The translations under genes and the position numbers were made by a program. A model generated the notes under the pieces. The model saw only the letters and a list, made by a program, of their open reading frames with translations. It ran no database searches and was not told where the DNA came from. This document shows positions 3,835 to 22,489 of a stretch of DNA of 22,866 nucleotides, one piece after another. The first letter of the stretch is position 1. Each line of letters begins with the position of its first letter. Origin of the DNA: a virus; the IMG/VR virus record IMGVR_UViG_3300028008_002322, positions 1 to 22,866 of that record. One strand, 5' to 3'.

Positions 3835-4884
3835 ATGAATAAGAGAATAGGCTTTGCCTGCAAATACATGTGGCACGATCAGACGCAGAAGAAGAAACTG
3901 CTAGAAGAGATCCAACGACCACTAAATACTCGCAGTACAACAGTACAATGGCTCAACAGGCAAACACGTGAAGATGCAGAACAACGCTTGTGGGATATCA
4001 TGGTCCACAACATACAGAGCTATGCTAATTTGATAGAGTACGTAGGGAGTTTGACAGATGAGTTGCGAATGGTACGACTGGGTAGCGATGTACTTCCTGT
4101 TTATACTGAGCCTACTTGGGGCTATTATTGGCGTAAGCCAGACGTCCGCGAATACTGTGAGAAACACTTTGCACCGATCGGCGAAAGGGCAAGAGCCCTC
4201 GATGTCCGACTATCGATGCACCCAGGCCAATTTACTGTACTTGCGAGCGACAACCCCGAAATTGTAGAGAGGAGCATAGAAGAATTTGAATATCACACCG
4301 ATGTCATACGCTGGATGGGATACGGCAAGACCTTCCAAGACTTCAAGTGCAATGTCCATATATCAGGTAGACAAGGTCCAGCCGGTATCATACACGCAGT
4401 TAACAAAAGACTTTCTCCAGAAGCGAGAAACTGCATCACAATCGAGAACGACGAAATGTCGTGGGGCATCGAAGCCTCCCTCGAACTTGTCGACACATGT
4501 GCATTGGTATTGGACATACACCATCACTGGGTCCGCACAGGCGAATATATACTGCCCACCGACGATAGATATCTACGCATGATAGATTCGTGGCGTGGTG
4601 TACGACCTGTGATACATTATTCATACAGTCGAGACGAATGGTTACCGCAAGACTTTGCACACGACACAATGCCTAACATGGAACAGTTACTAGAGGCAGG
4701 CCACAAAAAGCAAAAACTTAGAGCCCATAGTGATTACTATCCTAACAATACAGTTAATGACTGGGCTTTGTCCTTCCGTGACTCGGCAGATATTATGTGC
4801 GAAAGCAAGGCAAAAAATCTTGCTAGTAAGGCTTTGTTAGATTATGACCTAAGCCGCAAAACTCTCGCCACAGCCGCAGCTTGA
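3835..4884 (+). CDS. uvsE: UV-damage endonuclease (UvsE/UVDE family)
   Basis: UVDE nicks DNA immediately 5' of UV photoproducts and abasic sites, starting an alternative excision repair. The 349-aa TIM-barrel protein shows the family ligands: the RLGSDVLPVY segment (81-90), MHPGQF with His129, NVHISG with His175, ENDE with Glu204, LDIHHHW with Asp227 and His229-231, IHYSY with His261, and HSDYY with His298 and Asp300. The gene follows the HAD gene by 2 bp but has its own promoter and no ribosome-binding site. Its base composition stands out: about 57% G+C at 4141-4200 and 53% at 4201-4260, against roughly 35-43% in sampled neighbouring lines. Its last 36 bases overlap the convergent iscA gene. 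Confidence 0.93.
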   Translation: MNKRIGFACKYMWHDQTQKKKLLEEIQRPLNTRSTTVQWLNRQTREDAEQRLWDIMVHNIQSYANLIEYVGSLTDELRMVRLGSDVLPVYTEPTWGYYWRKPDVREYCEKHFAPIGERARALDVRLSMHPGQFTVLASDNPEIVERSIEEFEYHTDVIRWMGYGKTFQDFKCNVHISGRQGPAGIIHAVNKRLSPEARNCITIENDEMSWGIEASLELVDTCALVLDIHHHWVRTGEYILPTDDRYLRMIDSWRGVRPVIHYSYSRDEWLPQDFAHDTMPNMEQLLEAGHKKQKLRAHSDYYPNNTVNDWALSFRDSADIMCESKAKNLASKALLDYDLSRKTLATAAA

Positions 4885-5181
4885 CGTTGCATTAGGATTT
4901 CTAATTATAAGTTGGGATCCAAACACTTCTTTAATAAAATCAACTTCAGTACCTGCAACATACATCACACTAAATTGATCAATAGCAAATTGACCGTTTG
5001 GTAAGTCAACTACTTCATCTTTTTCTTCTAAGGCTTCAGTCATGGACCATTCATACTGAAAACCGGCACACCCACCGCCCTTGACTTGAAGTCTGACGAT
5101 GGGTTTACCTTGTTCGTCTATCAGCTTGGTCATGTGATCGACCGCTGATTGAGTTAATTTAACTAGTCCTGTTTTTTCCAT
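4849..5181 (-). CDS. iscA: IscA/HesB-type iron-sulfur cluster carrier
   Basis: A-type carrier that accepts an Fe-S cluster or iron and passes it to apo-proteins. The 110-aa product has the family's three cysteines: Cys38 in GGGCAGFQY and Cys102 and Cys104 in SSCGCGESF, the same spacing as Cys35, Cys99 and Cys101 of E. coli IscA. The ATG at 5181 is preferred; three codons upstream a TTG at 5190 is also possible. Translation overlaps the preceding small membrane gene on the same strand, and the 3' end overlaps uvsE tail to tail by 36 bp. It is the last gene of the leftward sod set and is separated from iscS and iscU by the divergent control region. ErpA or SufA would be alternative names for the same fold. 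Confidence 0.94.
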   Translation of the reverse strand: MEKTGLVKLTQSAVDHMTKLIDEQGKPIVRLQVKGGGCAGFQYEWSMTEALEEKDEVVDLPNGQFAIDQFSVMYVAGTEVDFIKEVFGSQLIIRNPNATSSCGCGESFAA

Positions 5182-5333
5182 AGTGTCCAAATACCATATC
5201 CGATTGCTGCATATGCTGCTAATTTCGCAAATGGTCCTGCGATTAGAACAACTACACCAACTCCAATAAGGACTGCACCGTCCCAGGATGTTCTTTCTTC
5301 TAGTCTATCTTTTACCCAATTAATAGGATTCAT
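5163..5333 (-). CDS. Small two-helix membrane protein between sod and iscA
   Basis: The 56-aa product has a charged N-terminus (WVKDRLEERTSW, 6-17) and two hydrophobic segments, about 19-36 (glycine/valine-rich) and 38-52, separated by a Gly-Pro-Phe-Ala-Lys turn, and ends in KKQD. A likely membrane hairpin of unknown role. The ATG at 5333 follows an AAGGAG site that lies in the last codons of sod; an upstream in-frame start at 5357 would overlap sod by 23 bases and lacks that site. It is placed one base after the sod stop, and iscA begins inside its 3' end, so the three are translationally coupled. Confidence 0.75.
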   Translation of the reverse strand: MNPINWVKDRLEERTSWDGAVLIGVGVVVLIAGPFAKLAAYAAIGYGIWTLWKKQD

Positions 5334-5334
5334 A

Positions 5335-5898
5335 TTATTCTCCTTGTATGCGGTCATTGATTACTGACCAATTTATAATCTTCCAAATATTAGCAAGGTA
5401 CTTTGATTTATCTGCTTGATAATCTAGTGCCCATGCATGTTCCCACCAGTCAACTAACAAAGCAATTTTCATTCCACGTTTATAACCGTGATTTTTAATT
5501 GTTTTGATTCGTCCTTTTGTATCTAAGTACAACCAACCGGAACCTTGAATGCCCATAGCTACTTTTGAAAATTCTTCTTTGAAACTTTCAAAAGAACCAA
5601 AGTTGCTATCAATAAGTTCCTGCGATATGCCTGTAGGTTTATTACCTGCAGAAACAGGTTGTAACTGTGGGAAGAACAAATTATGTAATTTTGCACCGCC
5701 ATAATTAAAATCATCATCGCCATCCTTATCATTGTATCTTTTAACATACGCTGATGCAAGTTTGCCGTAGTGATAATCAAGTGTGTCGCTGCTCATTACT
5801 TCAAGCTCATTCTTCTCATAGGGCAACTTTTCTTGCACTAGATTTTCACGAGCTGTATCTGCTTCAATGACTATTTTTCTGTATAACTTTATGGTCAT
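5335..5898 (-). CDS. sodA: Iron/manganese-family superoxide dismutase
   Basis: Converts superoxide to hydrogen peroxide and oxygen. The 187-aa product aligns by eye with the whole Fe/Mn-SOD fold after a roughly 24-residue N-terminal extension: LPYEKNELE (25-33), DYHYGK (41-46), AKLHNLFF (69-76), FGSFESFKEEF (100-110), GIQGSGWLYL (116-125) and DWWEHAWALDY (150-160). All four metal ligands are present: His43, His72, Asp150 and His154, with gateway Tyr51. Gln118 before GSGW and Gly68 four residues ahead of His72 are the Mn-type arrangement (Fe-type enzymes have Gln at the latter site). The second-sphere His30 of E. coli is Leu47 here. Start at ATG 5898 is chosen; a GTG at 5913 is in frame. No ribosome-binding site is seen, and a late-promoter-like TATAAATA lies four bases before the ATG. 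Confidence 0.93.
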   Translation of the reverse strand: MTIKLYRKIVIEADTARENLVQEKLPYEKNELEVMSSDTLDYHYGKLASAYVKRYNDKDGDDDFNYGGAKLHNLFFPQLQPVSAGNKPTGISQELIDSNFGSFESFKEEFSKVAMGIQGSGWLYLDTKGRIKTIKNHGYKRGMKIALLVDWWEHAWALDYQADKSKYLANIWKIINWSVINDRIQGE

Positions 5899-5902
5899 AC
5901 TG

Positions 5903-5910
5903 TATTTATA
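5903..5910 (-). promoter_or_regulatory. T4-late-type promoter box for the sod-iscA set
   Basis: TATAAATA read on the - strand, ending four bases before the sod ATG. With T4 late geometry (box at about -13 to -6) transcription would begin at or within a base of the ATG, consistent with the lack of a ribosome-binding site. Promoter use is inferred. Confidence 0.55.
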
Positions 5911-5968
5911 CACTTAGGCCCGGCATAAAAAATAAAAACCAATCATTACATATAGTCTTTTTGTGTTG

Positions 5969-5976
5969 TATAAATA
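5969..5976 (+). promoter_or_regulatory. T4-late-type promoter box for iscS
   Basis: TATAAATA on the + strand, 59 bp before the iscS ATG. It precedes the sigma-70-like promoter, so iscS may be transcribed both early and late in infection. Assignment is by match to the T4 late consensus only. Confidence 0.55.
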
Positions 5977-5983
5977 CAGTTGG

Positions 5984-6012
5984 TTGACAATATTACTAAA
6001 TTGTTGTACAAT
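5984..6012 (+). promoter_or_regulatory. Sigma-70-type promoter of iscS
   Basis: TTGACA at 5984-5989, a 17-bp spacer and TACAAT at 6007-6012 (one mismatch to consensus). The predicted start is near 6019, leaving a leader of about 17 bases before the ATG at 6036. Confidence 0.75.
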
Positions 6013-6035
6013 AAACTAAAAAATCATATACATTA

Positions 6036-7307
6036 ATGGATCATAAGCAACACAGAGATGTCACAGCGACCATCGATACCCATGCAGAGTCATCGGGTAA
6101 CAGAATCTATATGGATTATGCTTCTACAACTCCATGTGATAAACGTGTAGTCGAAACCATGGTCAAGTACATGACTGATGAAGGTGAATTTGGTAATCCA
6201 GCAAGTAGAAGTCATAGTTTTGGATGGAAAGCAGACGATGCTGTTGATGAGGCTAGAAAAAATGTAGCTGAATTAATTGGTGCAGATCCTAAAGAAATAG
6301 TATTTACAAGTGGCGCTACCGAAGCAGATAATTTAGCAATTAAAGGTATTGCAGATTTTTATCAAAGCAAAGGCAAACACATTATAACAAGCAAGATAGA
6401 ACATAAAGCAGTACTAGATCCATGTAGAGAATTAGAACGTGACGGATTTGAAGTTACATACTTAGACCCTAACGAAGATGGCATAGTTACAGCAGACATG
6501 GTTATAGACGCTGTTAGAGACGATACTATACTTGTTAGCATTATGTATATTAATAATGAAATGGGTACTGTCAATGACATAGAAGGCATTGGTAAGTATT
6601 GTTTTGAAAACAAAATAATGTTTCATGTTGATGCTGCACAGGCAACAGGAAAAATAGAGTTTAACTTACAAGAACTTCCTGTACATTTAATGAGTTTATC
6701 CGCACACAAAACATATGGTCCAAAAGGTATTGGAGCCTTATATGTTAGAAAGAAACCAAGAGTAAGACTGAGAGCTCAAATACACGGTGGCGGACACGAA
6801 AGAGGTATGCGTTCAGGCACATTACCTACACATCAAATAGTAGGTATGGGCGAAGCATTCAAGTACGCAAGACTTGAAATGGAAAAGAACAAACAGCATA
6901 TTAAAATGCTACATGATAGACTGTTAAGCAAACTTACTACTATTGAAGAATCATACATAAATGGTTCACTAGATCACAAAGTACCAAACATACTTAATAT
7001 TAGTTTTAATTTTGTTGAAGGCGAGTCTTTGATTATGGCATTAGAGAACGTTGCTGTAAGCAGTGGTAGTGCATGTACAAGTGCTAGTTTAGAGCCTAGT
7101 TATGTGCTTAGAGCTATAGGCAGAGACGACGAGTTAGCACACAGTAGCATTAGATTTAGTTTTGGCAGAACAACTACTGTAGAAGAAGTAGATAGTGTTG
7201 CAGAGACAATGCTTAATGTAATTGGCAAACTTAGAATACTATCTCCTCTGTGGGATATGTATTTGGACGGTGTTGACTTTAGTAAGGTTAAATGGAACGC
7301 TCACTAA
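6036..7307 (+). CDS. iscS: Cysteine desulfurase IscS
   Basis: PLP enzyme that takes sulfur from cysteine and hands it as persulfide to IscU. The 423-aa product is complete and close to the proteobacterial IscS pattern: MDYASTTP (26-33), [12 protein letters not shown] (53-64), [14 protein letters not shown] (91-104), His123 in IEHKAV, HVDAAQ (Asp199, Gln202), PLP lysine Lys225 in [25 protein letters not shown] (250-264), the sulfur-carrying Cys347 in [10 protein letters not shown], and the C-terminal LSPLWDMY plus terminal W-N-A-H tail that in E. coli IscS contacts IscU. About 20 extra residues precede the usual N-terminus, with no recognisable targeting role. Composition is AT-rich like neighbouring genes. 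iscU follows by 17 bp, reproducing the bacterial gene order, but iscR is not beside it. Confidence 0.97.
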
Positions 7308-7324
7308 CGAGGTAAATAATTATT

Positions 7325-7753
7325 ATGGCATACAGTAATAAAGTAGTAGACAGATTTAAAAATGTACTTCATGATCCTGAGGCAAATGGAGTTGGTAGGT
7401 TTGATCCTAAAGATCCAAACGTTGCTACTGGAATGACTGGCGCACCTGCATGTGGTGATGTAATGAAGTTAGACCTAAAAATTAATCCTGACACCGATGT
7501 TATTGAAGATGTAAAATTCAAAACATATGGTTGTGGTAGTGCTATTGCAAGTTCGCACATGTTTGTCGAAATGCTAACAGGTATAACTACTGAACAAGCA
7601 CAACAAATCAAAGACAAAGATATAGCAGATGCTTTAGAACTTCCTGCATTGAAACTACATTGTTCAATCCTAGCAGAAGAATCAATCAAAGAAGCAATAG
7701 AGAATTGGGATAATAAAAAATTAAAAAGAAAACACAATAACGGTCCAGAATAA
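7325..7753 (+). CDS. iscU: Iron-sulfur scaffold protein IscU
   Basis: Scaffold on which IscS-derived sulfur and iron form a cluster. The 142-aa product is a full-length IscU with MAYSNKVVDRF at the start, GAPACGDVMKL (Cys43, Asp45), KTYGCGSAIASS (Cys70) and LHCSILAEE (His112, Cys113), so all cluster ligands are intact. The HscA-chaperone recognition motif, LPPVK in E. coli, reads LPALK (107-111). An insertion of a few residues sits near 15-25, and the C-terminus is lysine-rich. GAGGT upstream can serve as ribosome-binding site. The stop codon shares one base with the ATG of the next small gene. Confidence 0.97.
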   Translation: MAYSNKVVDRFKNVLHDPEANGVGRFDPKDPNVATGMTGAPACGDVMKLDLKINPDTDVIEDVKFKTYGCGSAIASSHMFVEMLTGITTEQAQQIKDKDIADALELPALKLHCSILAEESIKEAIENWDNKKLKRKHNNGPE

Positions 7754-7941
7754 TGCCAGTAAAATTTAAACCATCACAAAAAATTAGAAATAAATCCACA
7801 GGTAAAACTGAAACTCAACACTTTTACATGAAGTGTACCTCTACACAAGAGCTAGTAGACTATATAGGTAGCAGTAATGCAAAGCCTAAAACTATAGTAA
7901 AAGTAAAAAAAGAACTTACTAGTAGATCTACTAGAATTTAG
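7753..7941 (+). CDS. Small basic protein of unknown function
   Basis: The 62-residue product is lysine- and threonine-rich, with no cysteine pair, membrane segment or recognised domain; a central C-T-S-T-Q-E-L-V-D-Y segment may form a helix. Its ATG overlaps the iscU stop by one base and there is no separate ribosome-binding site, so it depends on iscU translation. Its end overlaps the convergent zinc-ribbon gene by 11 bp at a 16-bp palindrome. Function unknown; a link with IscU rests only on position. Confidence 0.6.
   Translation: MPVKFKPSQKIRNKSTGKTETQHFYMKCTSTQELVDYIGSSNAKPKTIVKVKKELTSRSTRI
7919..7934. repeat. 16-bp perfect palindrome at a convergent gene junction
   Basis: CTAGTAGATCTACTAG is its own reverse complement and spans the overlap of two convergent 3' ends. 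As it has no loop it would make only a short hairpin in RNA; there is no T-run. It may be a chance feature, a bidirectional terminator element or a protein site. Confidence 0.45.
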
Positions 7942-8218
7942 ATAAAGGTAAGTCTGTGTTTGCAGGCAAATCCCATACTTGTTTCTGTTCTACACCTTTG
8001 CGTTGAGCAAAACGTTTAGCATCACAGTTAGTACACACATGGAAGTAGTTGTTGTTCAACCGGCTTGAGTTCATCTTTTTTAGATCCCTGGTAAATACAG
8101 TATCACAGTTATCACACTGTAGGTGAACAACAGTTTTTTCACGAAGATATTCGTGTTTTTTGCCAAGTTTACTCTGCCGTTTATAGTGAGTATGTACTTT
8201 TTCAGTTTTAATGAACAT
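7931..8218 (-). CDS. Small zinc-ribbon-like phage protein
   Basis: The 95-aa basic protein has two CxxC knuckles, Cys35/Cys38 (CDNC) and Cys62/Cys65 (CTNC), separated by 23 residues: a likely structural zinc site. The N-terminus is rich in Lys and His and could bind nucleic acid, but there is no HNH or nuclease motif. The ATG at 8218 has no ribosome-binding site, while TAAATA on the same strand ends five bases before it, so the message may be leaderless. It is alone on the - strand in front of the tail genes. Confidence 0.75.
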   Translation of the reverse strand: MFIKTEKVHTHYKRQSKLGKKHEYLREKTVVHLQCDNCDTVFTRDLKKMNSSRLNNNYFHVCTNCDAKRFAQRKGVEQKQVWDLPANTDLPLSKF

Positions 8219-8299: not shown

Positions 8300-11200
8300 A
8301 TGGCACGTAAGATTGTAGATATAGGCGCAATAGGTAACGACGGTACCGGCGATAGTATTAGAGATTCGTTTCGTAAGACGAATGATAATTTTAAAGAACT
8401 ATATAGCTCGCTAGGACTTGGCGAAAAACTTACTTTTATTGCACTTGACGATACACCCACTACGTTTTTAGGTCAAGAAGGTGCTGTACTAGCAGTTAAT
8501 CCAACAACAGACGGATTACAATTTAAGCAGATTACAGCAGGTTTAGGTATCACAGTAGATGATACTTCAAATTCAAACCAAATTATTGTTGCGACTGAGT
8601 TTAGTGAAATCTCAGGTGACCCTAGCCCACAGCTAGGTGGTAACTTATCTGTTGCATCAGGTGGTAACACATACCGTATTAAAGATATGAATACTCCTGT
8701 TTCAGATGATGAAGCAGCAAACAAAGAATATGTAGATACAAAGATTTCAAGAGCAGGTGTTGATGCTATTGATCCGTCAACAGGTAATCCAAACGTAGCA
8801 TTTGGTACAATGACTGGTCCATTAATTTTAAGCAGAAGCCCAGAACCTTCAGATGACGAGTTATATGACGGCTTGATTGCTGCAACTAAACAATATGTTG
8901 ATAATGCATCATTTGGTAGTAAGGTAAATCTATATGTTGCTACATCAGGTCAAGACGAAAGAGTAGGTGTAAGTGAAGAACTACAAGGTAGAGCTCTTGC
9001 TTATGCTTATAAAACAATTGAAGCAGCATTAAAACGTGCTGAAGAAATAGTATTAGAATCATTAGACGATATTGGTCCTTATAAGAAACAACTTACATTT
9101 AATAACGGCTCAGGCACTGTAACACTTGCACAAATTGATACGTCACCTTCATCAGGTGCAGGATTTGTTGGTAGTGCAAGAATGAGTGTTGATACTATTA
9201 CTATGAATGCATCAGGTGCAAACTATCAAGCAGGCGATATTATTACACTGCAAGGTGGTACAGGTTCAAATGCAACTATTGAAGTATTATCAACAGCAAC
9301 AACACCAGGTGCTATTACAACATTTAAACTTGTAGCACAAGGTGATTACACAGTTTTACCTGGAACAAGCGGCGTTGTTACAACTTCTGATTCAACATTT
9401 GGTATAGGTGCTACATTTGATGTAACATATAAAGTAAACGGTGTTGATATTAGCAGTGGTGGTAACAGTTACAGTTTAGTATCTGTACGTGTTGTAGGAA
9501 CAGGAGCAACAGGTTCTTTTGGTACAGCAGTTATATCCGGTGGTGTTATTACTGGTATTGATATTGCAGATGCAGGTAGTGGATTTACAACAGTTGGAAC
9601 TGTTCAAGTTGACTTGCCAAGATTCTTATTAAAAACAGATGGATATCGTACAGACTACACAGGTGATGTATTAACAGATACTCCGGTAGCATTTAGAACA
9701 AGAGATATTAGAGAAGGTTTACACTTACGTGGCGAAACATCAGGCGCACTTGCGCAGATTCTTGCACACGACGGATCATTAGATAGTAACGGTAACGAGA
9801 TATTTGATGTAGATATTAAGTATGGAACATTTTTAATTGATGAACCTATTTCATATGGTGATATTACTAACCAAGTTCAAATTGCAGTCCTTGTTGAAAG
9901 TGGAATTTATCAAGAAAACTATCCACTTAAAGTACCGCAGAACGTTGCAATCATTGGTGATGAGTTTAGACGTGTTCTTATTAAGCCAAAACCGGGAACT
10001 TCTAGTTCTCCTTGGGCATTCCAGAAATTTAGAAGAGATACAAATATCGATGGGTTGACAACTGCTACGCAATTGTATGGTCATCATTATCTATCAGACT
10101 CAACACAACCAGTTTACCCTAAAATTGATAATAAAGGTGCTTACAGAAAGTCAGCAGCACTTCTCAAACTTAATAAATCATTCATTCAAAACGAAGTTGT
10201 TGATTGGATCGATACGCAAATTGCTGGAAACATTGCACCATTTACAAACACATATACATATATCAAAACACAATGTAAACGTGATGTAGGATTAATTATT
10301 GATGCTATGATATTCGACCTGAAGTACGGCGGATATAATAGAACTATTTCCGCAGGTTTAAAATATTATCAGACTGCAAGTGGTCGGAAAGCAATTACTA
10401 CACAACTTTCACAAACAATTGCAGGACTTGAAAGAGCGCAGTTAGCAATTGATTATGTTGTACAAAACTTAGCACTTCCAGGAACAGTAACTACAGCACT
10501 ACAGATTATTGATACATCATTTACAGCAGAAACAGGAACACAAGCAGTTGTTGCTGAACTATTTGATGCTATTGAAGATGTAATTGACGGATCAGGTAGT
10601 GTTAACTATCCAGAAGAGAACGACAAGTTAGACGTATTCTTAATGAATGACGCTAACATTATTAGAGCTGTTACAGGTCAAGGGCATGGCGGCTTTATGA
10701 TGGTACTTGACCCAGAAGGTCAAATCCTTGCTAAGTCACCATACTGTCAAGAATCAGCATCATTCTCAAAATCCAAAAACGCACAAACGTTTGCAGGTGG
10801 TATGTTTGTTGACGGCTTTGCTGGTAACTTACAATTTAGACACGCTTCATCTACATCACCTACAAGAATTGAAGTAACAGGACTAGACAGAACACCACAA
10901 CTTCCTTGTTCGTTTATTGTTGATGATACAGTATTCAGAGTAAACTACGTTAGAGATTTTGTCTTTAACAAGAACGGTTCTTCAGCATCATTTATCTTAG
11001 ATGAAACTACACCATTTACTAGAACTGCTGGACCTGTTACTGCTACAATTACAAATGCTAACCCTGCTGTTATTACTTCATCAGCACACAAATTACAAGA
11101 AGGTGCTGTTGTTAGATTTACAACAACAGGTGCATTGCCAACTGGATTAGTTGTTGGTACAGATTACTTTGTTTCAGGTGTTAATTTAACAACTAACACA

Positions 11201-14200
11201 TTCCAAGTTAGTACTTCACTAGGTGGTTTATCAGTTGCAACAACAAGTGCTGGTAGCGGAACACACTCAATAGAAAGAATTTATGAAGTATTGATGCCTG
11301 GTAACAGATCAATGCTATCAAATGACTTTACACAGGTTGCTGATATGGGTTACGGCCTACTTGCAACCAACGGTGGTTTAACAGAAGCAGTTTCGATGTT
11401 TACATATTACTGTTATGCATCGTACATGTCACTTAACGGTGCGCAGATTAGATCCGTTGGTGGTTCTTCTGCACATGGTATCTATGCATTGGTTGCAGAT
11501 GGTTCGGATCCACTTGAGGTTCCAACACCAACTTCATTATACAATGACCTTGCACAAACAGTTTACAGTTATTTCCCAAGTGCAGGATTTGCAAACACAC
11601 AAGGTGGACTGTTCCTTTATGTTGACGGATACGACTACACGCCACTTAACAACTCAGAACTTGAAGTTGATCATGGTAATGTAATTTATAGATATCCTGT
11701 AACATCAGTTTCAACTAATGACTTGCCAGCTGGTGTTGCTAAACTTAATTTAACAAGTGACTCAACTGGTAACTTCGATGGATTGTTTGCTGTTATTCCA
11801 GACAATGCTAAAATGTCGTTGCGTTCTAACTCGCAGGTTATGTTAACAGGTGAACTTGTTGACGTTGCTACAAGACCATCAACTGGTTTGATACTACAAG
11901 AATACACAGATGTTTATCGTGTTCTACAGTTTGAGTCATCAGCTGATTCAAGAGGTAACTATGAAGTAGAATTTACAGCAGCAGCACCAGGTGTAGGTAC
12001 ATTCCTTGCAACTATTACTGCAACAACAGCAACTACTAATGTTGCTACGTTTAGTCAGAATCACGGATTAATTATTGGCGATACTATTGTTCCAAGATCA
12101 ACTGCAAATGGAATAACTGCAAGTACAACTTATCATGTTATTAGTGTTCCAAAATACGATCAAGTAGTTTTAAGTACAAGTGCTGGAGGCGCGGCACTAG
12201 TACTAACGACCGGTACACCAACTATTAAATGTGTTGTACCACATAAACAATTATTCAACTATAGATTGAGCTTTACTTCAACAGGTACATTACCAGCAGG
12301 AATTACATCAGGTGAAACTTATTGGGTTAGAGAAGAAAACTTAACCGCAACAAACTTTGAACTTTCAAGTGCTATTAATGGTTCGACACCTGTAACTACA
12401 ACAGATACAGGTACAGGTACACATTCAGCTATTATTGAAGGCTTAACTGTTACAACGCTTAGAGAGAACTACAACTATATTGACTTAACACTGTACAAGC
12501 CAGGCGAAGCAAAAGCAGGTACAACAGAAACTTGTACAATATCTGTTGCATCTCCGGCTGTTATTACAAAAACAACGCATAACTTTACACAAGGTGATCC
12601 AATTGTTTTCACAACAACTGGTTCATTACCAACAGGAATTAACACAAGTACACATTACTTTGTACACACAGTTCTTGATGCAAACACATTTACAATAAGT
12701 GTAGCATATCCAACACTGTCAGGCGCAGTACAAGTTGATACAACAGGTGTTCAAAGTGGAACACATTCGTACTATACACCAACAGGTGCTGTAGGCGATA
12801 GTTCATTTGCTATTGTTGCTGTTGCTCCTCAGGAAAGATCAAGGGTACAAGGAAGTACATTTAACTTCAACGGTGAAGTTTATGTAATTGACTTGTTTGA
12901 AGATGAAACCGTAGTTGGTAATCCTTGGGCAAGGATTACTCTTGATAGGCCATTAGTAGATAGTCTTACACAGTATGAAGCATCATATACAGTTAAATCT
13001 GCTGTAGCAAGAGGAACAGATGGTGCTAATGGTAAACTAACAATTAGAATTTCATTGACTCGTGTTACATCTCATGACTTACTTGAGATTGGTACAGGAT
13101 CATATGCTGATACCAACTACCCAACAGAGATTTATGGACCATCAGTTAATGCGTTCAACCCTGATACAGAAACAGATGAACGAAACGTTGGACGTGTGTT
13201 CTATGTAACCACAGACCAATTTGGTAACTTCAACGTTGGACCGTTCTTTAGAGTTGACCAAGGTACAGGACAGGTTACGTTCTCAGCAGCTATTGCATTG
13301 AGTAACTTGGACGGTATTGGATTTAAACGTGGTGTTCCTGTTTCAGAATTTAGTACAGACTCTGGTATGACTGATAACGCTGTTGATACAGTACCAACAG
13401 AAAACGCAACCAGACTTTACATTGAAAGACGTCTTGGTACCACACACGGTGGTGCTCCAGTAACATCAGCAAACTTAATTCCACCAATCAGTGGTGGCTT
13501 TATGGCGCTGGACGGTTCACTGGCTATGAAAGGCCCAATTGATCAAGGTGGATTTAAACTGATCAATGTTGGTGATCCAACACAGCCACAAGACGTAGTT
13601 AACTTAAGAAACTTAACATTTGGTAACTTACAAGAATTTACACTAAGCAATCTTGAAGCAAATGATATACTTGTATTCACAGGTAATAACAACGATGCTA
13701 TTAATGCATCTGTTGTAGGTGATATTGCTTTAGGTATTGATTCAACTGCAAATACAATTGACGCACAGATTCAACCAGGCGTAATTGATAACGCTGATGT
13801 TAATGCTAGTGCTGCAATAGAACAAAGCAAGTTGAACATGTCAGATGCTCAAGTACGTGCAAATGATACCGGTATTACACAAGCTGACAAAGGTATTGCA
13901 GCATTTGATAATACATTCTTTACTGTTACAAACGGTTGGGTAACACTTACTGATGGCACAATTACAAAAGCAAAACTAGAAAACGTTACTGGTAAGAGTG
14001 TATTAGGTAATAACTTACTAAGTGCTAGTGCTCCTGCAGATATATTAATGACAACTGTTGTTGATCAAGGTGGCTCTGTTAAGAAAACACAATTTAGTAC
14101 AACTGGTTTCTTAAGAAGAACCAGTAGTTCAAGTAATACAGCTGATGTTGATTACGGTATTATCGAAGCAACCGCTAACGCAACTGCAAGTCAACTTGTT

Positions 14201-14953
14201 CAAAGAGATAGTAACGCAGATGCCAGTGCAAGAATTTGGAACGCTACAAGCTCATTTAATATTAACGGTAACACATCAGTAGGTTATGGTACATCAGGAT
14301 CTGCAAGTTACGTAAGATTGTATACAGGTTCAAGTGGTAGTGGTGGTATATATTTACAGAACGGTTCACTTGCAACAGATAAGAGAAACTTATATGATAA
14401 CGACTATCATAAGTTTAGAACACAGAACGGTGTATCACTAGCACCTGTCGAAGCATCACAAATTGTTACAACAGCATTAACAACTGGTGGTAATACTACA
14501 GCAGGTACAGTAACAGGACGTTGGACATTAACAGGAACAACTCCAAGTGAATCAAGGTTTGAAGCAACTTATGCAGCTGACCTTGCAGAATACTACGAAG
14601 GTGACAAGGAATACGAAGTCGGAACAGTGTTAGTATTTGGTGGTGACAAGGAAGTTACAACTTCTAATAAAACAGGAGATCCAAAAGTAGCAGGTGTTGT
14701 TTCAGATAGAGCAGCATATGTTATGTACGCAGGTTGTCCTGGATTTAAAAATCTTGTTGCACTGCAAGGTAGAGTACCTTGTAAAGTAGTTGGCAAGATT
14801 GAAAAAGGTGATTTAATTGTGTGTGCAGGCATACATGGTGTTGGTACAGTAGCTAATAGCGATGTACGAGCAGGTACAATTATTGGTAAAGCAATTGAAG
14901 CATATGATAGTGATCATATAGGCACAATTGAAGTAGCGGTAGGGAGAAACTAA
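8300..14953 (+). CDS. Giant virion structural / tail-fibre protein (2217 aa)
   Basis: A very long mosaic protein. Residues 1-35 (VDIGAIGNDGTGDSIRDSF, then NDNFKELY) match the start of T4 baseplate proteins gp9 and gp10, suggesting baseplate docking. Next come NKEYVDT-type fibre motifs (about 147 and 200), a pectate-lyase-like beta-helix region (from VNLYVATSG near 210 to VAIIGDEFRRV near 553), and a helical region around 620-740. Repeated beta modules follow at about 915-990, 1237-1311, 1323-1377 and 1412-1492, then a typical fibre shaft. The C-terminus (about 2090-2217: DLAEYYEGDKEYEVGTVL, VAGVVSDRAAYVM, GRVPCKVVGKI, then GTIEVAVGRN) resembles the end domain common in cyanophage fibres, possibly an intramolecular chaperone or trimerisation unit. 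No signal peptide. The stop overlaps the next ATG by one base. Confidence 0.88.
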   Translation: MARKIVDIGAIGNDGTGDSIRDSFRKTNDNFKELYSSLGLGEKLTFIALDDTPTTFLGQEGAVLAVNPTTDGLQFKQITAGLGITVDDTSNSNQIIVATEFSEISGDPSPQLGGNLSVASGGNTYRIKDMNTPVSDDEAANKEYVDTKISRAGVDAIDPSTGNPNVAFGTMTGPLILSRSPEPSDDELYDGLIAATKQYVDNASFGSKVNLYVATSGQDERVGVSEELQGRALAYAYKTIEAALKRAEEIVLESLDDIGPYKKQLTFNNGSGTVTLAQIDTSPSSGAGFVGSARMSVDTITMNASGANYQAGDIITLQGGTGSNATIEVLSTATTPGAITTFKLVAQGDYTVLPGTSGVVTTSDSTFGIGATFDVTYKVNGVDISSGGNSYSLVSVRVVGTGATGSFGTAVISGGVITGIDIADAGSGFTTVGTVQVDLPRFLLKTDGYRTDYTGDVLTDTPVAFRTRDIREGLHLRGETSGALAQILAHDGSLDSNGNEIFDVDIKYGTFLIDEPISYGDITNQVQIAVLVESGIYQENYPLKVPQNVAIIGDEFRRVLIKPKPGTSSSPWAFQKFRRDTNIDGLTTATQLYGHHYLSDSTQPVYPKIDNKGAYRKSAALLKLNKSFIQNEVVDWIDTQIAGNIAPFTNTYTYIKTQCKRDVGLIIDAMIFDLKYGGYNRTISAGLKYYQTASGRKAITTQLSQTIAGLERAQLAIDYVVQNLALPGTVTTALQIIDTSFTAETGTQAVVAELFDAIEDVIDGSGSVNYPEENDKLDVFLMNDANIIRAVTGQGHGGFMMVLDPEGQILAKSPYCQESASFSKSKNAQTFAGGMFVDGFAGNLQFRHASSTSPTRIEVTGLDRTPQLPCSFIVDDTVFRVNYVRDFVFNKNGSSASFILDETTPFTRTAGPVTATITNANPAVITSSAHKLQEGAVVRFTTTGALPTGLVVGTDYFVSGVNLTTNTFQVSTSLGGLSVATTSAGSGTHSIERIYEVLMPGNRSMLSNDFTQVADMGYGLLATNGGLTEAVSMFTYYCYASYMSLNGAQIRSVGGSSAHGIYALVADGSDPLEVPTPTSLYNDLAQTVYSYFPSAGFANTQGGLFLYVDGYDYTPLNNSELEVDHGNVIYRYPVTSVSTNDLPAGVAKLNLTSDSTGNFDGLFAVIPDNAKMSLRSNSQVMLTGELVDVATRPSTGLILQEYTDVYRVLQFESSADSRGNYEVEFTAAAPGVGTFLATITATTATTNVATFSQNHGLIIGDTIVPRSTANGITASTTYHVISVPKYDQVVLSTSAGGAALVLTTGTPTIKCVVPHKQLFNYRLSFTSTGTLPAGITSGETYWVREENLTATNFELSSAINGSTPVTTTDTGTGTHSAIIEGLTVTTLRENYNYIDLTLYKPGEAKAGTTETCTISVASPAVITKTTHNFTQGDPIVFTTTGSLPTGINTSTHYFVHTVLDANTFTISVAYPTLSGAVQVDTTGVQSGTHSYYTPTGAVGDSSFAIVAVAPQERSRVQGSTFNFNGEVYVIDLFEDETVVGNPWARITLDRPLVDSLTQYEASYTVKSAVARGTDGANGKLTIRISLTRVTSHDLLEIGTGSYADTNYPTEIYGPSVNAFNPDTETDERNVGRVFYVTTDQFGNFNVGPFFRVDQGTGQVTFSAAIALSNLDGIGFKRGVPVSEFSTDSGMTDNAVDTVPTENATRLYIERRLGTTHGGAPVTSANLIPPISGGFMALDGSLAMKGPIDQGGFKLINVGDPTQPQDVVNLRNLTFGNLQEFTLSNLEANDILVFTGNNNDAINASVVGDIALGIDSTANTIDAQIQPGVIDNADVNASAAIEQSKLNMSDAQVRANDTGITQADKGIAAFDNTFFTVTNGWVTLTDGTITKAKLENVTGKSVLGNNLLSASAPADILMTTVVDQGGSVKKTQFSTTGFLRRTSSSSNTADVDYGIIEATANATASQLVQRDSNADASARIWNATSSFNINGNTSVGYGTSGSASYVRLYTGSSGSGGIYLQNGSLATDKRNLYDNDYHKFRTQNGVSLAPVEASQIVTTALTTGGNTTAGTVTGRWTLTGTTPSESRFEATYAADLAEYYEGDKEYEVGTVLVFGGDKEVTTSNKTGDPKVAGVVSDRAAYVMYAGCPGFKNLVALQGRVPCKVVGKIEKGDLIVCAGIHGVGTVANSDVRAGTIIGKAIEAYDSDHIGTIEVAVGRN
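11042..12774 (+). repeat. Repeated beta modules within the 2217-aa fibre
   Basis: Imperfect copies lie at about 11042-11269, 12008-12232, 12266-12430 (a half copy) and 12533-12774. Each runs: a strand ending in (A)VIT or similar, H-x-L/F-x-x-G-x-x-x-x-F, TTGxLPxG, T-x-YFV, an N-T-F core, and GSGTHS or a similar end. A related copy is in the following gene at 15079-15300. Divergence shows old duplication rather than recent tandem copying. Confidence 0.75.
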
Positions 14954-21150: not shown

Positions 21151-21387
21151 ATGTTTCATCCATTAGAAGAAAACTTATCCGAAGTATCTACTAGTGATGT
21201 AGAGCTTAAACTAAGCGAATTGAACAAAAAATATTACCAAGCCCAGCGTTTAGGGAACAATCAACTGTTGACACAACTTCAAACTTTTGTTACAATATAT
21301 AGAAATGAACTACGTCAGAGAGCAATACAAGCAAAATTTGACGAAGAACAAGAGAAAGATTTGGATCAACTAATAAATGTGGACTGA
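21151..21387 (+). CDS. Small helical protein of unknown function (78 aa)
   Basis: A charged, almost wholly helical protein (two predicted helices, about 14-33 and 35-66, rich in Gln, Leu and Glu) with an acidic end. No enzymatic motif. It starts one base after the preceding stop without a clear ribosome-binding site, so re-initiation is likely, and its 3' end overlaps the next gene by 11 bp. Similar small proteins occur in T4-like phages between fibre and other genes, but I cannot name this one. Confidence 0.65.
   Translation: MFHPLEENLSEVSTSDVELKLSELNKKYYQAQRLGNNQLLTQLQTFVTIYRNELRQRAIQAKFDEEQEKDLDQLINVD
21268..21296 (+). promoter_or_regulatory. Possible internal sigma-70-type promoter
   Basis: TTGACA at 21268-21273, a 17-bp spacer and TACAAT at 21291-21296, inside the 78-aa gene. 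The predicted start, near 21303, would give the DnaE-like gene (ATG 21377) a leader of about 74 bases. Confidence 0.45.
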
Positions 21388-21850
21388 GAATAATACTACT
21401 GATCAACTAATTAAAGGCATAGTTAAGTATGGCCCTGACATACTTGAGAACTGTGTGTGCAATGATGATCTAAGCAAATACAAAAATAAGATAGAAAAAG
21501 AGTTTCTTAACTATCCTCTTCCTAAACAATCAATAGATTCTACCAATTGGTTCCTTCCTTACAAATATCAAGACATGGACATTAAGCAACATTTGTTAGC
21601 CAAATGTTCGAATGATACTGAGGTGGAACGTGTAAATATAGAACTAGCAGAGTATGAGAAGCGAGATTTATTTCCGCTACTCAAACAGATGGCATATATA
21701 ATAGATACACTTAGAGAAAAGAATATTGTTTGGGGTGTTGGTAGAGGTAGTAGTGTTGCTAGTTTTGTACTCTATTTAATGGGGGTACACAAGGTAGATA
21801 GTATTAAATACAATATACCACTAAATGAATTCTTTAAAGGAGAAATATAA
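21377..21850 (+). CDS. Stand-alone fragment resembling DNA polymerase III alpha (DnaE) nucleotide-binding region
   Basis: Residues 82-153 of the 157-aa product resemble C-family polymerases before their catalytic aspartates: ERVNIELAEYEKR, then a helix ending in I-V-W, GVGRGSSVAS (120-129, matching the GxGRGSAAGS triphosphate-binding loop), and LMGVHKVDSIKYNIPLNEFF, matching the LGITD-DPL-YNLLFERF segment. The protein ends before the region that would carry the paired catalytic Asp residues, so it cannot polymerise alone. The N-terminal 80 residues are unlike the PHP domain. It may bind nucleotide, associate with the host replisome, or serve a structural role. Because it is an intact small ORF with coupled ends, it looks like a maintained gene rather than decay. 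Confidence 0.7.
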   Translation: MWTENNTTDQLIKGIVKYGPDILENCVCNDDLSKYKNKIEKEFLNYPLPKQSIDSTNWFLPYKYQDMDIKQHLLAKCSNDTEVERVNIELAEYEKRDLFPLLKQMAYIIDTLREKNIVWGVGRGSSVASFVLYLMGVHKVDSIKYNIPLNEFFKGEI

Positions 21851-22093: not shown

Positions 22094-22489
22094 ATGATCA
22101 AAGGTAAACTCACTCCCCTCCACGATGATGTTTTAGTATACGGAATGCATTTCGGTGAAACTAAAACTAAAGGCGGTATTATCATGGCCGCTGACGATGC
22201 AAAAGCACACGGTGTTAAAAGTCGTTGGGCAAAAGTCTATGATAAAGGTTCTGAGAACAAAGACGATTACCAAAAAAACGATTGGATCTTAATTGAACAT
22301 GGTCGTTGGACAAGAAAGATAAAGGTAGACGATCCCGACCTAGGTGAGGTCGAGATACAAAAAGTTGAAAAGTCTGCAATTCTTGCTGTTGGTACAGACG
22401 ACTTTGAACCTGAATTAGCCTACTGGGGACAACATTATAGCGATGGTGACACTGCTACATTTGACGCAGGTGACTTCGGTGCTCAATAA
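22094..22489 (+). CDS. GroES-like co-chaperonin (T4 gp31 functional analogue)
   Basis: Caps the host GroEL folding chamber; T4 gp31 does so for the major capsid protein. The 131-aa product has the Hsp10 pattern: LTPLHDDVLVY (6-16), a loop with KGGIIM (26-31) matching the GroES mobile loop (GGIVL) that binds GroEL, a DWILIEHGRWTRKI strand pair (63-76), a turn, and KSAILAV at the end of the barrel (93-99). About 32 acidic and aromatic residues follow that normal GroES (97 aa) lacks. The ATG follows GGACAAGG. Its end overlaps the convergent small gene by 7 bp. Confidence 0.85.
   Translation: MIKGKLTPLHDDVLVYGMHFGETKTKGGIIMAADDAKAHGVKSRWAKVYDKGSENKDDYQKNDWILIEHGRWTRKIKVDDPDLGEVEIQKVEKSAILAVGTDDFEPELAYWGQHYSDGDTATFDAGDFGAQ

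Follow-up and report, generated by a model that had tools for sequence, protein, structure and literature searches.

The window analysed here, a virus record of 22,866 bases from IMG/VR (IMGVR_UViG_3300028008_002322), carries an island of genes for iron-sulfur (Fe-S) cluster assembly, comprising iscS (cysteine desulfurase), iscU (scaffold) and an A-type carrier gene, together with a gene for superoxide dismutase (SOD). The explanation that we prefer, with moderate confidence, is that a mobile iscS-iscU pair and the carrier supply clusters to ferredoxin and radical S-adenosylmethionine (radical-SAM) proteins of the phage, and that SOD is a separate gene sharing the locus. A first-pass annotation of the same DNA had seen in the four genes one coordinated programme, which builds clusters while removing the superoxide that destroys them; this single programme is not upheld, since the four are also found in incomplete sets.

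Gene products of the island

The four genes reported by the first-pass annotation are all present and retain their catalytic or ligand residues. They are laid out divergently, with sod, a gene for 64 residues and the carrier gene on the minus strand, and iscS, iscU and a gene for 62 residues on the plus strand, an arrangement that, as had been claimed, is unlike a bacterial isc operon. IscS (6036..7307, plus strand) exceeds both NCBIfam equivalog cut-offs for this enzyme (NF010611, 688.4 bits against 548; TIGR02006, 685.3 against 643.2) and shares 65% identity with IscS of E. coli. In the alignment with the latter, K225, C347 and H123, which we take to be the pyridoxal phosphate lysine, the active-site cysteine and the active-site histidine, occupy invariant columns, and the long C-terminus typical of the IscU-binding form is retained. 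After a gap of 17 bases follows iscU (7325..7753, plus strand; Pfam NifU_N, 2e-38), whose product retains C43, D45, C70, H112 and C113 in the alignment, presumably the cluster ligands, that is, the three cysteines plus the equivalents of Asp39 and His105. Judged by its sequence, the scaffold is a divergent IscU homologue: it scores under the IscU equivalog cut-off (152.6 against 192.4 bits) and has an insert of 6-7 residues plus a C-terminal extension. The E. coli protein has LPPVK, the site for HscA, where the window protein reads LPALK; among 32 IscU rows, LPPVK was found in 17, LPPIK in 11 and other forms in 4. The latter, LPALK, LPTLK or LPKLK, make up the window group and the ferritin-context locus L005 (4/32), and LPPIK marks the other divergent IscU proteins (11/32).

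The carrier gene (4849..5190, minus strand; start at ATG 5181 or TTG 5190; Pfam PF01521, 5e-17) had been named iscA, a name that the NCBIfam scores do not bear out, placing the protein nearest ErpA and well below IscA. It passes the general A-type model TIGR00049 (103.8 against 58.8), scores best with the ErpA model, yet below its cut-off (105.7 against 117), and falls far short of the IscA equivalog TIGR02011 (76.2 against 150.6). C41, C105 and C107 are retained, and the nearest sequences in the PDB are AQ_1857 and HI1723.

The sod gene (5335..5898, minus strand) more likely starts at the ATG at 5898 than at the listed GTG at 5913. Its product matches Pfam Sod_Fe_C, with Sod_Fe_N exactly at the cut-off, and lies far under the cut-offs of both the Fe-type and the Mn-type SOD equivalogs of NCBIfam. 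Numbered from the ATG at 5898, H43, H72, D150 and H154 are invariant among 23 phage SODs; from alignment with solved SODs and general knowledge, we take them to be the metal ligands. The same alignment shows that the alpha-hairpin is shorter by about 20 residues. The predicted structure has a mean pLDDT (predicted local distance difference test) of 90, and all 50 Foldseek matches listed are SODs. By its modelled fold and its four metal ligands, the protein is thus a predicted Fe/Mn superoxide dismutase.

Recurrence of the island and history of the iscS-iscU pair

Patterns derived from IscS found eight viral loci. As a check, the first-pass annotation had proposed looking for the same divergent four-gene island elsewhere, and it recurs in five further IMG/VR contigs, four with the complete set in the same order (L002, L003, L008 and L009; L and G numbers are our labels for loci and contigs) and one cut inside sod by the contig end (L004). 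L002 and L009 are close to each other, as are L003 and L008; their IMG numbers differ, and the samples may not be independent. Four more loci, L014-L017, have sod, the 64-residue gene, the carrier gene, iscU, the 62-residue gene p62, the landmark gene p95 and the fibre gene in the same order without iscS. Ratios of nonsynonymous to synonymous substitution (dN/dS) against relatives were 0.040-0.143 for iscS, 0.086-0.141 for iscU, 0.033-0.091 for sod and 0.143-0.161 for the carrier gene, and all four are under purifying selection.

The contig of L002, G001 (77,087 bases), holds the genes of the window at 97-100% protein identity and gives a broader view of the phage. Its clamp loader (62517-63431, window orientation) has its best cultured matches, at 54.9%, in PA5oct, MIJ3, Paride and relatives, and the gene order polymerase, p73, GroES-like, clamp loader, PhoH, DnaJ is common to G001 and MIJ3/Paride. 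The records of MIJ3 and Paride place them in the Arenbergviridae, of which PA5oct is presumably also a member. By the shared order of replication genes and the closest core protein, seen in what are only fragments of its genome, the phage of the window is, on sequence grounds, a marine relative of the Arenbergviridae, jumbo phages of Pseudomonas. A terminase match was found in 2 of 23 records, which are fragments.

In the tree of IscS, the window falls within the ferritin-context clade, beside L005 (support 96/92), and the other members of that clade (L005-L007) adjoin a ferritin-like gene in different phages; the island has its own IscS clade (100/99). In the IscU tree, the window-type contigs group with L005 (87/95), and the iscS-less L014, L016 and L017 stand outside. 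Between the window and L016, synonymous divergence (dS) is close to saturation for iscU (1.98), whereas sod and the carrier gene give 0.49 and 0.44. By both trees and the dS of iscU, the iscS-iscU pair has a history other than that of its neighbours. The two genes remain together in all contexts of the window's IscS clade, and p62 lies downstream of iscU in a second phage context as well.

Phage IscS proteins form three supported clades in a tree with a thin set of bacteria, thin because the scan of genome contigs gave 45 mainly Clostridia-like loci, none gamma- or betaproteobacterial by title. A wider viral scan gave 41 loci. One Burkholderia row (wrong frame) and the near-copies L178 and L190 were dropped from the tree, and L198-L209, at no more than 40% identity or partial, were left out (L207 is partial, with iscR beside it). 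L184-L186 are read as bacterial because of their gene order iscR-iscS-iscU. At 60% identity or above, on contigs read as phage, viral IscS occurs in eight arrangements: that of the window (L002-L004, L008, L009); near a ferritin-like gene (L005-L007, L177, L178); between phoH and dnaJ with p62 (L179-L182, L187, L194; dnaJ lies past the end of L179); between nrdA and nrdB (L188-L193); between dnaJ and def (L195); before iscU (L196); near ferredoxin (L197); and between a ferredoxin-reductase-like gene and a radical-SAM gene (L183). The contig of the last, G084 (183,842 bases; also L383 and L384), encodes IscS and a single IscU, both above their cut-offs, one carrier, an ISC-type ferredoxin over the cut-off (172 against 132.1), a reductase-like protein and 25 radical-SAM matches; a search for SOD gave no match in it.

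Several of these contigs have further features. G091 has 21 radical-SAM matches with IscS and a carrier. In the ferritin context, L005 (6640-17790) and L006 (6672-17436) encode ClpX, cytochrome c, the ferritin-like protein, IscS, IscU, Hsp20, ClpS, a SufS-type aminotransferase and peroxiredoxin, by sequence a putative iron and redox set. The order sod-iscU-iscA stands between nrdA and nrdB in G058 (L385, 64-4440), and carrier, canonical IscU, p62 and divergent IscU stand in a row between dnaJ and phoH in G073 (L380, 7611-8985). After iscU in L196, a gene at 11996-12982 (plus strand) encodes a protein that matches the L183 radical-SAM protein over its full length at 30% (156 bits); it is not counted as radical SAM because the PF04055 search of its contig, G090, found nothing.

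The divergent region of the window contains a sigma70-like promoter, TTGACA-17-TACAAT (5984..6012, plus strand), which has the top score of the region (11/12); the scan returned 21 sites against 13.8 expected. TTGACA-17-TATAAT stands before iscU in the iscS-less L014-L017, and its counterpart in the window precedes iscS, so that promoter-like sequence is retained across the junction of iscS presence and absence. The motif TATAAATA, which we take to resemble the T4 late -10 element, lies immediately before sod (5903..5910, minus strand) and upstream of iscS (5969..5976, plus strand). Since two copies were observed in the window against 2.15 expected by chance, only their placement is notable, and the copy upstream of iscS is not at the matching place in the iscS-less contigs G010 and G011. 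The gap between sod and iscS is about 490 bases longer in L003 and L008 than in the window.

Candidate clients and competing explanations

The first-pass annotation had named radical-SAM or ribonucleotide-reduction enzymes as possible clients and had advised looking for phage Fe-S proteins elsewhere in the genome. Such proteins are encoded in G001, whose 11 radical-SAM matches bear out the radical-SAM part of the suggestion, which is answered in part only. Numbered in window orientation, the genes concerned lie at 6.6-35.0 kb, ahead of the point at 38.9 kb at which the window begins. When ten of the proteins were compared with NCBIfam, 3 exceeded the cut-off of the 'twitch domain-containing radical SAM' model, 6 matched radical-SAM models below cut-off only and 1 had no match. 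A 4Fe-4S ferredoxin (63675-64025) matches Pfam Fer4 at 41.2 bits (cut-off 21.1), with DUF3470 below cut-off and the nearest NCBIfam model, FdxA, also below (124.3 against 135). With 1 IscU, 1 carrier and 11 radical-SAM matches, G001 thus combines a carrier and IscU with several radical-SAM genes. Within its radical-SAM island (L112, 10903-11655, minus strand) lies a gene for a 250-residue protein with an SGGADS motif, which we take to be PP-loop-like; Pfam and NCBIfam searches of it gave no match.

In the explanation that we prefer, a horizontally moving iscS-iscU pair, accompanied by p62 in some contexts, would have been placed under a sigma70-like promoter that also fronts iscU in the iscS-less sisters, beside the group of sod, the 64-residue gene and the carrier gene. 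We infer the flow of clusters and its timing, the clients served, the origin of the reductant and the age of sod as follows. IscS would draw sulfur from cysteine in the infected cell, IscU would assemble the cluster on its conserved cysteine, aspartate and histidine ligands, and the ErpA-like carrier would pass it to the radical-SAM enzymes, whose genes lie upstream, and to the 4Fe-4S ferredoxin, with the reductant, and any chaperone still required, supplied by the host. SOD would stand apart as a gene for redox protection that has probably been in the lineage for longer. A bolder version, which we put forward tentatively and hold to be possible but doubtful, is that Fe-S biogenesis independent of the host is evolving in one lineage of jumbo phages, from a mobile IscS and a divergent IscU freed from HscA/HscB (LPPVK being degraded) up to a near-complete ISC set in G084 that would mature its 25 radical-SAM proteins.

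The separation of SOD from the other genes is seen in both directions. Paride, MIJ3 and Vibrio phage 2.275.O (349 kb) have SOD, yet searches for radical-SAM, A-type-carrier and IscS proteins gave no match in any of the three; conversely, SOD matched in none of the 13 IscS-bearing contigs of other arrangements (G004, G006, G081-G091), which are fragments. In the part of their study used here, Rohaun and Imlay describe HemN as unaffected by superoxide and viperin as slowly inactivated, far less than fumarase, and radical-SAM pathways as functional in SOD-deficient E. coli (PMC9576991). Partial occurrence and the finding that radical-SAM enzymes, where tested, are largely resistant to superoxide are together the grounds on which SOD is read as a separate function. 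Since the Pseudomonas relatives have it too, SOD is probably an older gene of the lineage; in MIJ3 and Paride, the short-type SOD adjoins ClpS, Hsp20, QueD and ClpX.

A number of results weigh against cluster supply to phage clients. The 11 radical-SAM matches belong to the near-identical G001 and lie outside the window itself. The sisters G010, G011 and G012 have 2, 8 and 7 radical-SAM matches and no IscS match, so that IscS looks dispensable for such clients. Only 7 of the 19 IscS-bearing records searched have radical-SAM matches (G001 11, G007 4, G008 9, G081 2, G084 25, G089 9 and G091 21), and none was found in the IscS-bearing G004, G006 and G088 (63, 62 and 96 kb). Association was tested in 25 contigs of at least 50 kb, drawn from 80 clamp-loader loci and not selected for Fe-S genes; radical-SAM proteins over cut-off were present in 16, IscU in 14, the carrier in 20 and SOD in 13, with G054, whose single radical-SAM match is under cut-off, scored as none. 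Radical SAM and IscU were unassociated (both in 9, radical SAM only in 7, IscU only in 5, neither in 4; Fisher p = 1.0), and SOD and IscU were weakly associated (odds 6.7, p = 0.047, uncorrected and with related contigs), in a test that is itself weak because the contigs are fragments. IscS was found in 0 of 34 clamp-loader contigs with a query that matched 8 of 49 records elsewhere in the analysis. It is also possible that iscS was lost in the sister phages rather than gained in the window type.

Among other explanations, the proteins may serve the host, as an auxiliary set that keeps host Fe-S enzymes alive in a long infection with SOD shielding dehydratases, which we consider unlikely. In passages of PMC8940887, viral Fe-S genes are read as a boost to the host oxidative-stress response, and the superoxide-sensitive dehydratases described in part of PMC9576991 are cellular enzymes. 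The ferritin-context phages L005 and L006 also encode cytochrome c, peroxiredoxin, ClpX, ClpS and Hsp20, and their kind (G004-G006) gave no radical-SAM match; against this stand two such matches in the related ferritin-context contig G081, the divergence of IscU, and the radical-SAM genes and ferredoxin of G001. It is a good deal less probable that IscS supplies sulfur in general, for the thiolation of tRNA or DNA, and not for cluster assembly. IscS is a sulfur hub, the PP-loop-like SGGADS protein lies in the radical-SAM island of G001, and the order nrdA-iscS-nrdB is found in L188-L193. An IscS-DndBCDE-DndI phosphorothioation system has also been published, as stated in part of PMC11662687. 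Thiolation is countered by the 17-base distance to iscU and the unbroken pair across the contexts of that IscS clade, by the retained IscS C-terminus, and by the lack of a Pfam or NCBIfam family match for the PP-loop-like protein.

The position of the island beside the fibre genes could be explained if carrier and scaffold loaded clusters or iron into a tail protein of the virion, which we regard as very improbable. The lambda tail protein gpL holds an Fe-S cluster. Of 80 loci anchored on p95, 56 leave room for 3.5 kb or more on the side of the island; in these, the carrier was found in 45, SOD in 36, IscU in 31, IscS in 3 and none of them in 11. The 45 carriers lie between uvsE and p95-fibre, which suits a role in the virion, but iscS-iscU is also found away from fibres, in the phoH-dnaJ and ferritin contexts, and a tail protein bearing a cluster motif was neither sought nor seen. 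As for a chimaeric contig or host contamination, IMG/VR and INPHARED do contain bacterial-looking stretches, such as L184-L186 and the contigs of Acinetobacter phage MD-2021a. Recurrence, intact neighbours and the IscS tree, with a clade of the window's own, rule this out, and its probability is negligible; in several contigs the island runs on without a break into fibre, polymerase and radical-SAM genes, and the iscR and hsc queries gave no match. The claim that the island is phage-borne therefore holds. Several records named as phage, such as Listeria phage LM 4-11-1 and Acinetobacter phage MD-2021a, look bacterial and inflate the matches to host genes. With these alternatives weighed, the supply of clusters to phage proteins by the iscS-iscU pair and the carrier remains the explanation that we favour.

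Surroundings of the island and relation to known systems

The island is bounded by a UvsE-like UV endonuclease gene (3835..4884, plus strand; Pfam PF03851, 9e-38; TIGR00629, 109.6, below the cut-off of 124.45) and the gene of a tail fibre protein of 2217 residues (8300..14953, plus strand; PHROG 9851, 5.5e-42). Between sod and the carrier gene, an open reading frame (5163..5357, minus strand) encodes the 64-residue protein, which is 100% identical in L003 and L014-L017 and had no match in PHROG and Pfam searches. The gene of the 62-residue p62 (7753..7941, plus strand) has homologues after iscS-iscU in L179-L182, L187 and L194, and the cysteine-rich p95 of 95 residues (7931..8218, minus strand), with a weak zinc-ribbon match below cut-off, is the landmark between island and fibres. 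Farther on lie a DNA polymerase fragment gene (21377..21850, plus strand; PHROG 11127, 1.2e-41), in the order seen in MIJ3 and Paride, and a gene for a GroES-like or head morphogenesis protein (22094..22489, plus strand; PHROG 931 and 3188). At 509-1276, KdsA exceeds both Kdo-8-phosphate synthase cut-offs (333.5 against 242 and 320.7 against 314) and adjoins a glycosyltransferase and an HAD-IIB protein.

Like the iscRSUA-hscBA-fdx-iscX operon of E. coli, the island has homologous IscS and IscU with iscS directly before iscU. In contrast to that system, sod is divergent, the carrier is ErpA-like, IscU lacks the canonical LPPVK, and iscR, hscA, hscB and an ISC-type fdx were not matched in G001; the first-pass annotation was right in this respect, as tblastn with E. 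coli IscR, HscA, HscB and Fdx at E 1e-6 gave no match in G001 (L110-L113), a fragment, or in L002, L003, L004, L008 and L009. The kinship with the Arenbergviridae MIJ3 and Paride lies in the clamp loader (54.9%), the replication gene order and the short SOD, whereas those two have no radical-SAM, A-type-carrier or IscS match, and none of the 8 records with an IscU match is an Arenbergviridae record of this kind.

It is already known from the main text of Nishimura et al. 2017 that T4-like marine phages carry a carrier or IscU with many radical-SAM genes (PMC5332604). There, carrier or IscU genes are described in 16 viral genomes from the environment, one T4-like genome having a carrier and 12 radical-SAM genes, and service to viral proteins is proposed. 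The phage of the window resembles these in being T4-like and marine, in its A-type carrier and IscU and, through the near-identical G001, in many radical-SAM genes. The words 'desulfurase' and 'superoxide' are absent from that main text, to which the present phages add IscS, SOD, a promoter in common, and the presence or absence and transfer of iscS-iscU. Viral contigs from Cariaco likewise have Fe-S assembly genes on virus-like contigs, with NifU on two contigs, nifS on a separate putative transposable element and superoxide unmentioned in the text of that article (PMC7785012). Excerpts of two further papers report sufE and nifU in viruses (PMC8940887) and a viral Fe-S assembly gene whose proposed client is a viral ferredoxin (PMC7678222); Fe-S and SOD terms do not occur in PMC4053976, and passages of PMC10507051 and PMC4908380 had no bearing on the subject. 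No paper on a phage IscS-IscU-SOD island was found in the open-licence literature, supplements aside. Within the scope of these searches, what is new is the finding of IscS in several phage contexts and in one locus with SOD, together with the history of the iscS-iscU pair and the nearly complete set of G084.

The common assumption is that viruses rely on the host for the assembly of cofactors. That the sulfur-donor step recurs, along with scaffold and carrier, in phages some of which have many radical-SAM genes suggests that there are phages which bring with them cofactor-hungry chemistry and part of its supply, and that a phage of the window type may partly build cofactors for its own proteins. 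Given that SOD of Paride and MIJ3 comes without an IscS, carrier or radical-SAM match, redox protection and cluster assembly are separable functions in cultured phages.

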